DNA from: Saccharothrix algeriensis
Lineage (GTDB): Bacteria; Actinomycetota; Actinomycetes; Mycobacteriales; Pseudonocardiaceae
Direction of reading: 5' to 3'
NCBI RefSeq assembly: GCF_016907655.1
Contig: NZ_JAFBCL010000001.1
Span: forward strand, 1,178,001 to 1,242,000
Length of the DNA stretch: 64,000 nucleotides
Under the pieces are notes generated by a model. The model searched no databases and had not been told where the DNA came from. It saw only the letters and a list, made by a program, of their open reading frames with translations. Of the stretch, positions 29,852-52,759 are shown piece by piece (position 1 is the first letter of the stretch; each line of letters opens with the position of its first letter). Made by a program: the position numbers and the translations under genes.

Positions 29852-32668
29852 ATGACGCCACCGCGCACCAGCTCCCCCGTCCTGGTCGGCCGGGGCGACG
29901 AGCTGGCGGTGCTGCTGCGGGTGGTCTCGACGCAGCCGTCCGTCGCGCTCGTGGAGGGCGAGGCGGGGATCGGCAAGAGCCGCCTGGTGCGCGAGCTGCT
30001 GGGCCGGCCGGAGGTGGCGCCGCTGCGCGTGCTGACCGGGTTCTGCCAGCCGCTGCGCGAGCCGTTCCCGTACGGCGCGGTGCTGGACGCGCTGCGCGGT
30101 GTCGGCGGGCTGCTCGGCCGCGTGCCGCTCAGCCCCGTCACCGGGGTGCTGCGCCCGCTGCTGCCGGAGATCGCCGAGCGCCTGCCCGAGCCGGCGCCGC
30201 GGCCCGAGGACCCCCGGCACGAGCGCCACCACCTGTTCCGGGCGGTGCGCGAGGTGGTCGCGGCGCTCGGCCCGGTGCTGCTGGTCGTGGAGGACCTGCA
30301 CTGGGCCGACGACGGGTGCCGGCACCTGCTGCGGTTCCTGATGGCCGACCCGCCGCCGAACCTGACCGTGCTGGTGACCTACCGCCGCGAGGACGCGCCC
30401 GGCGGGATGGCGCTGGGCAGCGCCTACCGCCCGCCCGCCGGGGTGACCGGCGCGGTCGTGGAGCTGGCGCCGCTGGACGTGGCGCAGGTGCACGACCTGA
30501 CCGCCGCGATCCTGGGCGTGGACGGGGTTCCCGCCGAGTTCGCCGCCCGGCTGCACGAGCGCACCGCCGGCATCCCGTTCGTGGTCGAGGAGATGCTGCG
30601 CGCGCTGCACCGCCCGGACTGGCGGCTGCTGGACCGGGTCGAGGTGCCGGCGCTGCTGCGCGACGCGATGGCCGAGCGGCTGGACCGGCTGCCCACCACC
30701 GGCCGCCGCATCGCGCAGGCGGCGGCGGTGCTCGGCGTGCCCGCCGCGGAGGAGCTGCTGGCCGAGGTCGGGGCGGTCGAACCGGACCGCGCGCGGGCGG
30801 CGCTGACGCACGCGCTGCACAGCGGGGTGCTGCACGAGGTCTCGGACATGAGGTACGGGTTCCGGCACTCGCTCGCCCAGCAGGCGGTGTACGACACGCT
30901 GACCGGGCCGGAGCGGCAGCGGCTGCACCTGCGGGCACTGGACGCGCTGGAGGGCGTGCGGCCCCGGCCGCTCACCCGGCTCGCCGAGCACAGCCGCCGC
31001 GCCGGGCGGCTCGCCGACTGGCTGCGCCACGGCGAGGCCGCCGCCGACCGGGCGCTGGAGGTGGGCGACCCGTCCACCGCCACCCGGACCTACCGGCAGC
31101 TGCTGGACGAGGCGTCCCTGACACCGTCCGATGTGGACAGGCTGGCGGTGAAGCTGGGCCGGGTGGCCCGCGGCGGGATCGACCAGCACGACCCCCGCAC
31201 CACGCTGGAGCGGCTGCTCGGCGACCGCAGGCTGTCCCGCGCCGCGCGCGGCCAGGTGCGGATGGACCTCGGTTTCCTGCTGATCAGGCAGTTCGGGGGC
31301 ACGGTGCAGGCCAGGCTCCAGCTCGAACGGGCCGTGGCGGAGCTGACCGACCAGCCCGGCGTGGCGATGCGCGCGCGGGCCGTGCTCGCGCAGCCGTTCA
31401 TCGGCGCCACGCCGCTGTCCGAGCACCTGCGCTGGATGCGCGTGGTGGACTCCTACATCGAGGCGTGCGACGACCCGCTGGTGCGCTACTCGCTGCTGGC
31501 CAACGAACTGGGCTCGCGCGTGTCCATCGGCGACCACAGCGCGGTGGCCGAGCTGCACCGGCTGCCCGCCACGTCCGACGACGTGGAGACCCGCCGCCAC
31601 CTGGCCCGCGCCCACTGCAACGTCGCCGACGCGTGCGCCCTGGTCGGGCACTTCGACCTGGCGCGCGACTTCCTGGACAAGGGCCTGCGGCTGACCGCCG
31701 GGGCGGGCGTGCCGTTCACCGAGAGCACCGGCCAGTCCACCCGCATCCACCTCGACTGGTACACCGGCGACTGGGGCTCGCTGGTGCCGCGGGCCACGCG
31801 GCTGCTAGAGGAGTACCGCGAGCTGCTGCCGGTGGCCAGTGAGAGCGCGCTGGTGCTGGGCGGTGTGGCGGTGGCGCGCGGCGACTGGGACGAGGCGGAG
31901 CGCCACCTCGCGGAGAGCGGCGTCCGCTCGGTGGAGAACTCCATCACCCCCATCGCGCTCGGCGGGTTCGCCGCGCTGTGCCGGCTGTGGTTGGAGCGCG
32001 GCGACCGAGCGCGGGCGTGCGAGGAAGCCGACCGGGGTTTGGACCTGCTGCGGCGCAAGGGGGTGTGGGCCTGGGCGGGCGAACTCGCCCCGGCCGCCGC
32101 CGACGCCTACCTCGCGGCCGGGCGGTCGGCGGACGCGGCGGCCCTGGTGGACGAGCTGGCGGCGGGCATCGCCGGCCGCGACGCGCCGCTGGCCGAGGTG
32201 GCGCTGAAGACGTGCCGGGCGCTGGTGGCGACCGGGGGCGAGGGCGACGCCGTGCCGTTGTTGCAGGAGGCGCGCAGCGCGGCCGACGCGCTCGGGCTCG
32301 CGTACTACTCCGCGATGCTGTCCGAGCGGATCGCGTTGTGCGGCTTGGAGGGCGGTGACGACTCGGCGGTGGTGGCGCTGAGCGCGGTCGCCGACCGGTT
32401 CGACGCCTTGGGCGCCAGCCGCGACGCGGCGCGCTGCCGGCACCTCTTGCGGGGTACCGGAGTCGCTACCCCTTCCCGACGCGGGCGGCGCGGGTATGGC
32501 AACGCCCTGTCGCCGCGCGAGCAGGACGTCGCGCGGTTGTTGGCGCAGGGGCGGACGAACCGGGAAATCGCCGACGTGCTGTTCTTATCACCTCGGACGG
32601 TCGAGCAGCACGTGGCCCGGGTGCTCCGCAAGCTCGGCGTGACTTCACGCGTCGAACTGCTCGCGTAA
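29852..32668 (+). CDS. Large ATP-binding LuxR (LAL) family transcriptional regulator
   Basis: A 938-residue regulator. Walker A is VEGEAGIGKSRLVRELLG (residues about 34-51), Walker B is VLLVVEDLHWADD, followed by a long TPR-like helical region (about 350-860). The C-terminal LuxR HTH is NALSPREQDVARLLAQGRTN, REIADVLFLSPRTVEQHVAR. AGGAG at 29840-29844 lies 7 nt before the ATG at 29852, which decides this start over the longer GTG at 29777. LAL proteins often activate specialised-metabolite or sugar-use genes. It is followed by the first nested-palindrome locus. Confidence 0.93.
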   Translation: MTPPRTSSPVLVGRGDELAVLLRVVSTQPSVALVEGEAGIGKSRLVRELLGRPEVAPLRVLTGFCQPLREPFPYGAVLDALRGVGGLLGRVPLSPVTGVLRPLLPEIAERLPEPAPRPEDPRHERHHLFRAVREVVAALGPVLLVVEDLHWADDGCRHLLRFLMADPPPNLTVLVTYRREDAPGGMALGSAYRPPAGVTGAVVELAPLDVAQVHDLTAAILGVDGVPAEFAARLHERTAGIPFVVEEMLRALHRPDWRLLDRVEVPALLRDAMAERLDRLPTTGRRIAQAAAVLGVPAAEELLAEVGAVEPDRARAALTHALHSGVLHEVSDMRYGFRHSLAQQAVYDTLTGPERQRLHLRALDALEGVRPRPLTRLAEHSRRAGRLADWLRHGEAAADRALEVGDPSTATRTYRQLLDEASLTPSDVDRLAVKLGRVARGGIDQHDPRTTLERLLGDRRLSRAARGQVRMDLGFLLIRQFGGTVQARLQLERAVAELTDQPGVAMRARAVLAQPFIGATPLSEHLRWMRVVDSYIEACDDPLVRYSLLANELGSRVSIGDHSAVAELHRLPATSDDVETRRHLARAHCNVADACALVGHFDLARDFLDKGLRLTAGAGVPFTESTGQSTRIHLDWYTGDWGSLVPRATRLLEEYRELLPVASESALVLGGVAVARGDWDEAERHLAESGVRSVENSITPIALGGFAALCRLWLERGDRARACEEADRGLDLLRRKGVWAWAGELAPAAADAYLAAGRSADAAALVDELAAGIAGRDAPLAEVALKTCRALVATGGEGDAVPLLQEARSAADALGLAYYSAMLSERIALCGLEGGDDSAVVALSAVADRFDALGASRDAARCRHLLRGTGVATPSRRGRRGYGNALSPREQDVARLLAQGRTNREIADVLFLSPRTVEQHVARVLRKLGVTSRVELLA

Positions 32669-32796
32669 ACGACTCGAACAATCCACGACAGGGGGACACC
32701 CCGCACACGACCACCCCTTCACGAATTCCACACACGACCCTTGACCACAACCCGCGCCTTTTGGCCCTTGGCACGCCCCGTGCAGCCCGGTGGCCT

Positions 32797-32921
32797 CGTG
32801 TTCTCCCCGTATGGCCTGCCCGGAGGGCTACCATGCTTTTCTGGGGGGTGCAAGCACGCTTTTCGCTTGCACCCCCCAGAAAAGCATGGTCGTCTTTGAC
32901 AGGCCATGCGGGGAGAACACG
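32797..32921 (+). repeat. Element 1A (A-type)
   Basis: Outer arms at 32797-32818 and 32900-32921 (CGTGTTCTCCCCG ... CGGGGAGAACACG) pair with one T/C exception. The internal bulge is CCCGGAGGGCT on the left and CGTCTTTGA on the right. The inner stem is 26 bp and perfect (32830-32855 with 32865-32890). The loop is ACGCTTTTC. Confidence 0.95.
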
Positions 32922-33080
32922 ACCGCTCTTTCTTTTCCTTCTCCTTGGCGGCCTGCCTGTCCGGCGAGGACTCTTTTTGTTTTTAACTTAGATCCGTACC
33001 GCACCAAATATTTCCTGGATCGGTGCGCGACCCAAGTATGAAGAGCGGCCGGGAGGCCCCCAAGGAGGAGGGAAGTGCGT

Positions 33081-33205
33081 CGTGTTCTCCCCGCACGGCC
33101 TGCCGGAGGCAATCACAGTTGTCGAGGGGGGTCAAGCGAAGAGCGTGCTTGACCCCCCTCGACAACTGTGATCGGGCTGCGCCCAGGCCGTACGGGGAGA
33201 ACACG
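33081..33205 (-). repeat. Element 1B (B-type, inverted)
   Basis: Outer arms at 33081-33102 and 33184-33205 pair with one exception. The bulge is CCGGAGGCA on the left and CGGGCTGCGCC on the right. The 26-bp inner stem is perfect (33112-33137 with 33147-33172). The loop GAAGAGCGT is the complement-type of the A loop. Confidence 0.95.
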
Positions 33206-33421
33206 AGGCACACGGCTGCGCTGAAGCGCCGCCGCGCGGAGCGCGGCGCTGAGGCGAGGGCTGAAGCTCCGTCGTGCCACTACCACCACAGCGCCGCCAC
33301 CGCCACCGCCACGCGGAAACCGACAGTGGCTATTCCTTCCGCATAGGTAGGGTGATCATGTGATCGGCAACCGCCCGGTGCGATGGCCGGACGACAAACC
33401 GCAAATTGACGGAGAAGGCTT

Positions 33422-34321
33422 GTGATACCGGTTCCCGATGCCCTGATCGCATCGCACAGCGGGCCAGCGGGTCGGGTGTGGCTCGCCGGGTTGCCCGGTC
33501 TGGTCGGCGACTTCCTCGACCGCTGGGGCCTGCGCCAGGACGGGCCGACGCGCAACGGCATGGCGTCGTTGGTGGTGCCGGTGACCGGTGTGGACGGTGC
33601 GCGCGCCGTGCTGCGGTGCCAGCCGCCCGGCGAGGAGACCACCGCGGCGGTGATCGGTCTGCGGACGTGGGGCGGCGACGGCGTGGTGCGGTTGCTCGAC
33701 CACGACCCCGACCTCGGTGTGATGCTGCTGGAACGGCTGGACCCCGATCGGTCGCTGTCCGCCGTCCCCGACGACGAGGAGGCCCAGCGGCTGCTGGCCG
33801 GCCTGCTCGCGCGCCTGACCGCCGTGCCGGCGCCGCCCGGGCTGAGCGGTCTCGGCGAGGTCGCCGCCGCCATGCTGCGCGACGTGCCCGACGCCCTGCC
33901 CCGGCTCTCCGACGACGCCGAGCGCGCACTGGTGCGGACGTGCGCGGCGGCCGTGTCGGAGGTGCTCGACGCGCCCGGCGACCGCCTACTGCACTGGGAC
34001 CTGCACTACGACAACGTCCTGGCCGGGCAACGCGAACCGTGGCTGGCGATCGACCCCGAGCCGCTGGCCGGCGACCCCGGCTTCGACCTGTGGCCGGCGC
34101 TGGACAGCCGGTGGGACGCGGTGGTCGGCAGCGGTGACGTGCCGCGGGCCGTGGTGCGCCGGTTCGACCTGCTGACCGAGGCGCTGGAGCTGGACCGGGA
34201 GCGGGCGGCGGCGTGGACGCTCGGTCGCGTGCTCCAGAACGCGCTGTGGGACGTCGAGGACGGCAAGCACCGCCTGGAGCCGGCGCAGGTGGCCGTCGCG
34301 GCGGCGCTGCTGGGGCGGTGA
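33422..34321 (+). CDS. Aminoglycoside/hydroxyurea phosphotransferase family kinase (APH(6)-like)
   Basis: A 299-residue kinase of the APH superfamily, closest in layout to streptomycin 6-kinase (StrB/AphE type). The catalytic loop is LHWDLHYDNVLAG (Asp193, Asn198) and the metal-binding segment is AIDPEPLAGDPGFDLWPAL, both at usual spacing. The N-lobe has AVLRCQPPGEETTAAVIGL, with the ATP-lysine position apparently taken by Arg. GGAGAAGG lies before the GTG at 33422. It may confer resistance to an aminoglycoside-type compound or act on a metabolite; no biosynthetic cluster is adjacent. Confidence 0.85.
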   Translation: MIPVPDALIASHSGPAGRVWLAGLPGLVGDFLDRWGLRQDGPTRNGMASLVVPVTGVDGARAVLRCQPPGEETTAAVIGLRTWGGDGVVRLLDHDPDLGVMLLERLDPDRSLSAVPDDEEAQRLLAGLLARLTAVPAPPGLSGLGEVAAAMLRDVPDALPRLSDDAERALVRTCAAAVSEVLDAPGDRLLHWDLHYDNVLAGQREPWLAIDPEPLAGDPGFDLWPALDSRWDAVVGSGDVPRAVVRRFDLLTEALELDRERAAAWTLGRVLQNALWDVEDGKHRLEPAQVAVAAALLGR

Positions 34322-42266: not shown

Positions 42267-42397
42267 CGTGTTCTCCTCCCCGTACGGCCTGGGCGCAGCC
42301 CGATCGCATTTGTCGGGGGGTGTCAAGCACGCTCTTCGCTTGACACCCCCCGACAAATGCGATTGCCTTCGGCAGGCCGTGCGGGGAGGAGAACACG
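42267..42397 (+). repeat. Element 2A (B-type)
   Basis: The arms start CGTGTTCTCCTCCCCG and end CGGGGAGGAGAACACG: both carry the extra CTC/GAG triplet seen in 3B. The 26-bp inner stem is perfect (42303-42328 with 42338-42363). The loop is ACGCTCTTC. The bulge GGCGCAGCCCG / TGCCTTCGG is the reverse of that in 1B and 3B. Confidence 0.95.
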
Positions 42398-42563
42398 ACC
42401 GCCCTTTCTTTTCCTCCTCCTTGGGGGCCTCTCGGCCGCTCTTCCTACTTGTGTCCCGCACGGATCTGGGTGATATTCGGTGCTGTACCGCCCGAGGCTG
42501 AAGAGCTAAAAGAGTCCTCGCCGGACGGGCAGGCCGCCAAGGAGGAGGAAGAGCAAGAGCGGT

Positions 42564-42688
42564 CGTGTTCTCCCCGCATGACCTGTCAAAGACGACCATG
42601 CTTTTCCTGGGGGCGCAAGCGAAAAGCGTGCTTGCACCCCCAGGAAAAGCATGGTAGCCCTCCGGGCAGGCCATACGGGGAGAACACG
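42564..42688 (-). repeat. Element 2B (A-type, inverted)
   Basis: Arms start CGTGTTCTCCCCG and end CGGGGAGAACACG. The inner stem (42595-42620 with 42630-42655) is 26 bp with one C/A position, a G-U pair if read as minus-strand RNA. The loop is GAAAAGCGT. The bulge TCAAAGACG / AGCCCTCCGGG is the reverse of that in 1A and 3A. Confidence 0.95.
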
Positions 42689-52314: not shown

Positions 52315-52439
52315 CGTGTTCTCCCCGTATGGCCTGCCCGGAGGGCTACCATGCTTTCTTGGGGGGTGCAAGCACGCTTTTCGCTTGCACCCCCCAAGAA
52401 AGCATGGTCGTCTTTGACAGGCCATGCGGGGAGAACACG
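52315..52439 (+). repeat. Element 3A (A-type)
   Basis: The outer arms and bulge are identical to 1A. The 26-bp inner stem (52348-52373 with 52383-52408) differs from 1A at two neighbouring positions (CTTTCTTGG against CTTTTCTGG) and both are matched on the other arm (CCAAGAAAG against CCAGAAAAG). The loop is ACGCTTTTC. Confidence 0.95.
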
Positions 52440-52627
52440 ACCGCTCTTGCTCTTCCTCCTCCTTGGCGGCCTGCCTGTCCGGCGAGGACTCTTTTAATCC
52501 CTTCAGCTTCGTGCTCTACCGCACCAATGAGATCGGTACAGCACCAAATCTCACCCGGATCGGTGCGCGACACAAGTATGAAGAGCGGCCGAGAGGCCCC
52601 CAAGGAGGAGGAAAAAGCAAGAGCGGT

Positions 52628-52759
52628 CGTGTTCTCCTCCCCGCACGGCCTGCCGGAGGCAATCATGCCGAGCAGGGGGTGTCAAGCGGTGAAGCGTGCT
52701 TGACACCCCCTGCTCGGCATGATCGGGCTGCGCCCAGGCCGTACGGGGAGGAGAACACG
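52628..52759 (-). repeat. Element 3B (B-type, inverted)
   Basis: The arms carry the extra CTC/GAG triplet on both sides. The 26-bp inner stem (52662-52687 with 52698-52723) is perfect but its lower half (ATCATGCCGAGCAGGGGG) is unlike that of 1B. The loop is GGTGAAGCGT, one base longer than in the other five elements. Confidence 0.95.

Follow-up and report, generated by a model that had tools for sequence, protein, structure and literature searches.

A high-copy family of nested, probably mobile palindromes in Saccharothrix and other Pseudonocardiaceae

Paired palindromes recur in a 64,000-nucleotide stretch of the Saccharothrix algeriensis genome, which we refer to as the window. With moderate confidence, we propose that they are copies of a non-coding, non-autonomous, probably mobile repeat of the ERIC/REPIN kind, whose mobility and function we infer. 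This reading draws on ~190 cores in the genome, near-identical copies within it, empty sites, roughly shared ends, genomic siting, covariation, and the use of the hairpin arm by an IS630-type element. The family seems to be undescribed, and repeats of the general kind are already known. Each unit is a single-strand fold composed of a four-way junction, a linker and, in some units, a tail hairpin, and it measures ~200 nt as a single copy.

The window holds three loci; at each of them, a pair of nested hairpins 125-132 bp long is arranged tail to tail. As the first-pass annotation had described, locus 1 consists of two nested hairpins in opposite orientation, a type-A hairpin at 32797-32921 (+ strand) and a type-B hairpin at 33081-33205 (- strand), in a tandem gap between predicted genes at 29852-32668 (+) and 33476-34321 (+). 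The A hairpin is built from outer arms (32797-32818 and 32900-32921), a 5' mini-hairpin (32819-32827), inner arms (32830-32855 and 32865-32890) around a loop at 32856-32864, and a 3' mini-hairpin (32892-32900), all on the + strand. Watson-Crick complementarity of the outer arms at locus 1, which are 22-28 bp long, is 93-96%. The 26-bp inner stems are perfect and enclose 9-nt loops, again in agreement with the annotation. In the flank profile, the outer flank of the A element (32770-32796, +), which reads GGCACGCCCCGTGCAG at its start, is conserved, and across 87 A copies of the genome this flank is kept to ~26 bp beyond the hairpin. On the other side, the tail of the A element (32942-32978, +) carries a GGCCTGCC motif, a hairpin with the sequence GTCC-GGCGA-GGAC at 32959-32971, and a T run. 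The tail of the B element (33041-33072, -) is degenerate and has no GGCGA loop; its outer flank (33206-33248, -) is conserved in the flank profile and forms a decaying array of small palindromes. Outside the B hairpins of this genome, for example at 33206-33300, we also observed two classes of tandem mini-palindromes that look most regular beside the hairpin.

The same design recurs near 42.3 and 52.3 kb, as had been claimed, although the length of 125 bp given for it does not hold there, because the B hairpins measure 131 and 132 bp. Locus 2 has a B hairpin at 42267-42397 (+) and an A hairpin at 42564-42688 (-), with one G-U wobble in the inner stem at 42595-42655 and a GGCGA tail hairpin at 42514-42526 (-). 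Locus 3 has an A hairpin at 52315-52439 (+), its GGCGA tail hairpin at 52477-52489, and a B hairpin at 52628-52759 (-). With up to one mismatch allowed, the window contains 26 occurrences of the arm sequence CGTGTTCTCC, compared with a mean of 4.9 and a maximum of 10 in shuffled sequence; shuffled and reversed controls rule out a chance origin of the arm repeats.

We found the family to extend far beyond the window, so the refuting condition set in the annotation, an absence of further copies outside it, does not hold. The pattern CGTGTTCTCC-N80-110-GGAGAACACG has 90 exact matches in the 6.88-Mb genome, with no occurrence of the reversed control. Allowing up to three mismatches, the genome contains ~190 cores, 102 of type A and 87 of type B, again with controls at zero, and we conclude that a non-coding palindrome family of high copy number is real. 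In this source genome 81 of 95 groups are paired, typically as an A element with an inverted partner ~155-200 bp away. Some A elements instead have a partner of a different arm type (CGTGTCATCCCCG), one that relatives carry as well. The pair had been taken for the basic unit, and that part of the annotation has to be given up, since single hairpins make up many of the groups in other species.

A pattern scan of named genomes returned at least 75 stretches, comprising one chance match, 73 from Saccharothrix (among those listed, S. tamanrassetensis, S. obliqua, S. coeruleofusca and a Saccharothrix bin) and one from Actinosynnema sp. ALI-1.44. The chance match, in Streptomyces colonosanans (L189), has no palindrome and enters no count. 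Our covariance model R1 matches 23 of the 25 genus genomes scanned, with up to 140 candidates scored per genome, and has no match in the two others (G007 and G024); copy number within the genus runs from 0 to ~190. In the sampled family R1 matches 74 of 249 genomes and 22 of 46 genera, the source genus included, so the family extends to other genera of Pseudonocardiaceae. The junction is preserved in the matches from those genera, and in several of them so is the tail. Among 296 genomes sampled from the class, R1 matches only the source genome and, at a weak 53.7 bits, one genome of a different family; because this sample is nearly empty, generic palindromes evidently do not score with R1. The family and class scans took up to 14 and 11 candidates per genome, respectively, under strict filters, and their counts are not copy numbers. 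The weak class match (L274 of G367, 1501-1622) is a long palindrome whose apical loop resembles ACGCTTCTC.

The annotation had also recognized no named family. At the Rfam 15 gathering score a scan of the window gave no match for the element, and at E up to 1, a search of five loci returned tRNAs and chance-level matches far below the gathering score. The sole match at the gathering score in the window is a cobalamin riboswitch elsewhere, at 2520-2655 on the - strand (50.8 bits). Among open-access papers, no title or abstract that our searches returned describes such repeats in Pseudonocardiaceae. Long inverted repeats of 432 and 323 bp, ~70% identical, are described around two islands of the Kutzneria albida genome (PMC4210621).

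Each element folds as a four-way junction. The "asymmetric bulge" of the first-pass annotation is present, but it is not unstructured: it consists of two mini-hairpins, CCC-GGA-GGG and GTC-TTT-GAC in A elements, that covary across species. Hairpin length ranges from 119 to 150 bp across species, and the outer ends vary between species. We aligned 37 diverse elements (alignment A1) and found that 96.8% of 1955 cells are paired, that 39 of 53 pairs have changes on both sides, and that double changes number 399 cells compared with 64-88 when the partner is slid. The inner stem has both-side changes in 23 of its 26 pairs, and its length holds at about 26 bp. The apical loop is repeatedly ACGCTTTTC or a sequence close to it, with long loops in some genera. 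In one genus (g49; L251, L270, L271 and L272), a TCCGCC...ACGGA domain like the apical one is also found as a separate hairpin upstream of the element. The alignment draws on 43 picked elements, of which six were left out: one in a gene (L190:2500), one truncated (L202), one with its orientation wrongly set (L151:5990), and three with an insertion-sequence end in the arm (L054 and L055 of the source genome and L158:6043 of S. tamanrassetensis). These six and similar elements remain in the strand and tail counts below.

A hairpin with a GGCGA loop lies within 170 nt downstream of 159 of 300 elements, compared with 2 of 300 upstream and 167 of 4000 random windows. Roughly half of the examined elements carry this tail hairpin, which leads into T-rich sequence. 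Its stem varies (GTCC/GGAC or GCGC/GCGC, and GCCC/GGGC or GGCC/GGCC in other genera). The tail was found for 92 elements of the source genome, mostly of type A, and most B elements there lack it. Using the tail to set orientation, we counted non-Watson-Crick pairs at outer-arm positions 4-24 of 225 distinct elements and found 230 G-U and 20 A-C. The inner stem gave 367 G-U and 9 A-C among 6241 pairs, with other mismatches present too, such as 61 T-C and 58 G-G. In other genera there were 52 G-U and 2 A-C among 874 pairs, a count that is partly circular in that the strand preferred by the model was used. A G-U on one strand is an A-C on the other, and the fold therefore matters on the strand whose 3' side carries the tail. 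These counts include related copies, which are not independent, but G-U turns up at several distinct positions. A rule based on structure alone agrees with the tail in 276 of the 278 elements placed by both, of 306. By this mismatch pattern, we conclude that one strand is the folding strand, as RNA or as single-stranded DNA, which the mismatches do not tell apart.

We placed the elements relative to genes predicted by a codon-usage script, in which a gene and a hairpin may overlap by up to 80 bases. The 94 groups examined in the source genome lie between predicted genes, except at L048, where a predicted gene overlaps the A hairpin, and at L036, where insertion-sequence genes lie inside the unit. 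Among the 92 groups with two placed neighbors, 43 occupy convergent gaps, an enrichment over the 68 of 314 background gaps of at least 60 bp (p-value ~5e-6), and 6 occupy divergent gaps, a depletion relative to 98 of 314 (p-value ~3e-7). Other genomes gave 49 of 91 in convergent gaps (p-value ~1e-8) and 7 of 91 in divergent gaps (p-value ~1e-6), the set of 91 being 94 less L190:2500, L126:2586 (which overlaps a gene) and L019 (the same place as L137).

Six of seven hairpins fetched from G021 are identical to one another. At seven shared sites, elements of the source genome are 97-100% like their own paralogues, but their likeness to the other species' element at that site is 71-86%. Some A elements of the source genome reach 92% likeness to S. 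tamanrassetensis elements located at other sites, so this species-specific pattern is not clean. The homogeneity of copies could reflect gene conversion instead of fresh insertion. At least four of the orthologous gaps hold no element in another species, and the occupied and empty sites do not amount to a census, as foreign loci were chosen for carrying an element and unrelated sequence intervenes in other gaps. Other sites are kept: L258, L259 and L260 adjoin the same acetyltransferase-like gene, and L271 and L272 the same leuC-like gene (both genes named from sequence). On the evidence of these sites, we conclude that the family both turns over and persists.

Copies were also compared at their ends. 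Two copies in G201 have 411 bp in common (94%), a stretch that starts 10 bp ahead of the hairpin; further upstream their sequences differ. In 18 copies of G008, compared by eye, likeness starts at about the hairpin and stops at the T-rich tail. The edges are only roughly placed; by eye, we recognized no target-site duplication at four empty sites of diverged species, and no clear terminal inverted repeat could be defined for the unit. In G021 (L192-L197), degenerate 22-bp tandem arrays lie upstream of each hairpin, and at every locus their repeat types (GGAGGAC, TAGAAC, TTCGAC and CATGAC) succeed one another in nearly the same order, as though deposited in layers.

The hairpins are also a target of another element. 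An IS630-type element of 1.16 kb, named from sequence and carrying its transposase in two overlapping frames, has 11 copies in the source genome (L004, L036, L043 and L055 are examples). Nine of these, eight in A elements and one in a B element, share one insertion point, a TA in the outer arm of the hairpin (CCCCG-TA-TGGCC). Of the remaining copies, one is in a spacer and one elsewhere. Under random choice of TA, with ~190 target sites, the chance of nine arm hits is ~5e-21. In S. tamanrassetensis (L158), a related element has its end at this TA.

Our search for a gene that moves the repeat, which covered Y1 transposases, RVT_1 reverse transcriptases and genes beside the elements, gave negative results; these, with the lack of a clear target-site duplication and the sites kept between species, we count against mobility. 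Strong compensatory change also argues against it, because such change needs selection on the fold and a purely selfish insert would not need it once landed. The Y1 transposase profile (PF01797) matches 3 of 24 genomes and has no match in the source genome, G008, G009 or G010. The reverse transcriptase profile RVT_1 (PF00078) matches 10 of 25 genus genomes, among them G009, G010, G016 and G023, and has no match in the source genome, G008, G015 or G021, all of which have copies. Apart from the inserted IS630-type element, no transposase gene flanked by elements was found in the loci read, and next to 20 copies from other genera lie ordinary genes, mostly different ones. A phage or plasmid vehicle was set aside, with no match by DNA likeness.

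We weighed three explanations against the mobile repeat. A cis-acting 3'-end element, that is, a complex terminator or mRNA-stability structure of neighboring genes homogenized by gene conversion, strikes us as unlikely; equally doubtful is the detailed form of this idea, in which tail and T run end transcripts, the junction guards the 3' end and the inverted pair serves convergent genes. Such a role would suit the likeness of the tail to an intrinsic terminator, the enrichment in convergent and depletion in divergent gaps, and the loci kept between species. However, single elements in tandem gaps run 14 with gene direction and 16 against it (one false match removed), which dismisses a simple co-directional terminator, and most B elements of the source genome lack the terminator-like tail. 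Moreover, terminators need no four-way junction, invariant loop or near-identical copies, and in two genomes the elements tend to be oriented against the replication fork.

This orientation bias was measured in genomes with a known dnaA position, with the terminus assumed opposite dnaA. It is 72 to 37 in G016 (p-value = 0.001; 109 listed of 132 matches), 21 to 10 in G008 (p-value = 0.07; 31 of 34, three second-strand rows removed) and 60 to 40 for A cores of the source genome (p-value = 0.06; 100 of 102). BIMEs have been proposed to bind a nucleoid or repair protein, and the fork bias, together with many long palindromes across the chromosome in BIME-like inverted pairs, could indicate a chromosome-structure element bound in this way. 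We regard this as highly improbable, because a cruciform folds both strands, yet the tolerated mismatches are G-U and not A-C on one of them; two genus members have no match; and the fork bias is weak in G008 and the A cores of the source genome and absent in G021 (3 to 4). Independent small RNA genes of ~200 nt, running from hairpin to T run and acting in trans, would account for the strand-specific, RNA-like covariation, the recurring apical and GGCGA loops and the end of the unit at the T-rich tail. This too is very unlikely in our judgment, given that upstream flanks vary by copy, so that no shared promoter is apparent in the sequence, and that copy number within one genus falls from ~190 to none, G007 and G024 having no match.

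If the units are mobile repeats, an enzyme would act in trans on the folded strand, or on conserved arm, junction or tail sequences, and would copy the unit into gaps between genes. Inserts would be tolerated near gene 3' ends and lost from promoter regions, and in the source genome two tail-to-tail units would have become the spreading form. By analogy with NEMIS and ERIC, a hairpin transcribed as part of an mRNA would be likely to undergo RNase III cleavage or to alter mRNA stability. A bolder and rather unlikely version is a new, SINE-like mobile class, in which the form replicated or recognized would be the folded single strand, RNA or single-stranded DNA, and the enzyme neither Y1 nor RVT_1. 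With the same reservation, the features recognized might be the conserved junction bases, the recurring apical loop and the GGCGA tail loop, with spread through Pseudonocardiaceae. Repeats resembling REP and ERIC have been described in other phyla. The fold described here is longer and more elaborate than that of REP, shows strong compensatory change, and reaches ~190 copies in a genome that gave no match to the enzyme known to move REPs, so that what moves such repeats becomes testable in a small genome set. In antibiotic-producing bacteria, such hairpins may also mislead the annotation of terminators and non-coding RNAs.

Comparison with known systems places the family near several of them. 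Retron non-coding RNA has a long outer stem around small hairpins and a long perfect hairpin, and our elements share this plan; a retron was rejected because the source genome, like G008, G015 and G021, has no RVT_1 match. As in intrinsic terminators, the tail combines a GC-rich hairpin with a T-rich stretch, whereas the lack of a gene-orientation preference, the invariant loop and the large upstream junction set it apart. The loose definition of a MITE, short non-coding copies interspersed at many places in one genome, describes the family. REP, BIME and REPIN sequences are intergenic palindromes with more than 100 copies per genome, often in inverted pairs and targeted by insertion sequences (PMC2817692, PMC3116915, PMC1525189, PMC3733652), some of which insert specifically into REP palindromes (PMC1525189). 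Our elements resemble them in all these respects. They differ in that a REP unit is 20-40 bp with a GTAG or CGTC tag (PMC3733652), whereas ours are four-way junctions of 119-150 bp with no shared tag. The two-palindrome unit of REPINs is matched by the paired groups of the source genome and not by the many single ones in other species. RAYT/REPIN membership therefore fails on size, tag and enzyme, PF01797 having no match in the source genome. The imperfect palindromes ERIC/IRU/RU-1 (127 bp), RPE, Correia/NEMIS and RUP are ~100-155 bp, intergenic and non-autonomous, with no mobilizer demonstrated experimentally (PMC2229807). Our family is likewise imperfect, intergenic, non-coding and of similar length. 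In contrast, those repeats come from other bacterial groups, and the TA-flanked termini of Correia, ERIC and RUP are not seen here; excerpts of PMC2229807 mention neither a GGCGA tail nor a covarying junction. RUP is tied to an IS630-type element and shares its ends with IS630-Spn1 (PMC2229807), whereas here the IS630-type element inserts into the repeat, whose hairpin arm is a natural, highly selective landing site for it.
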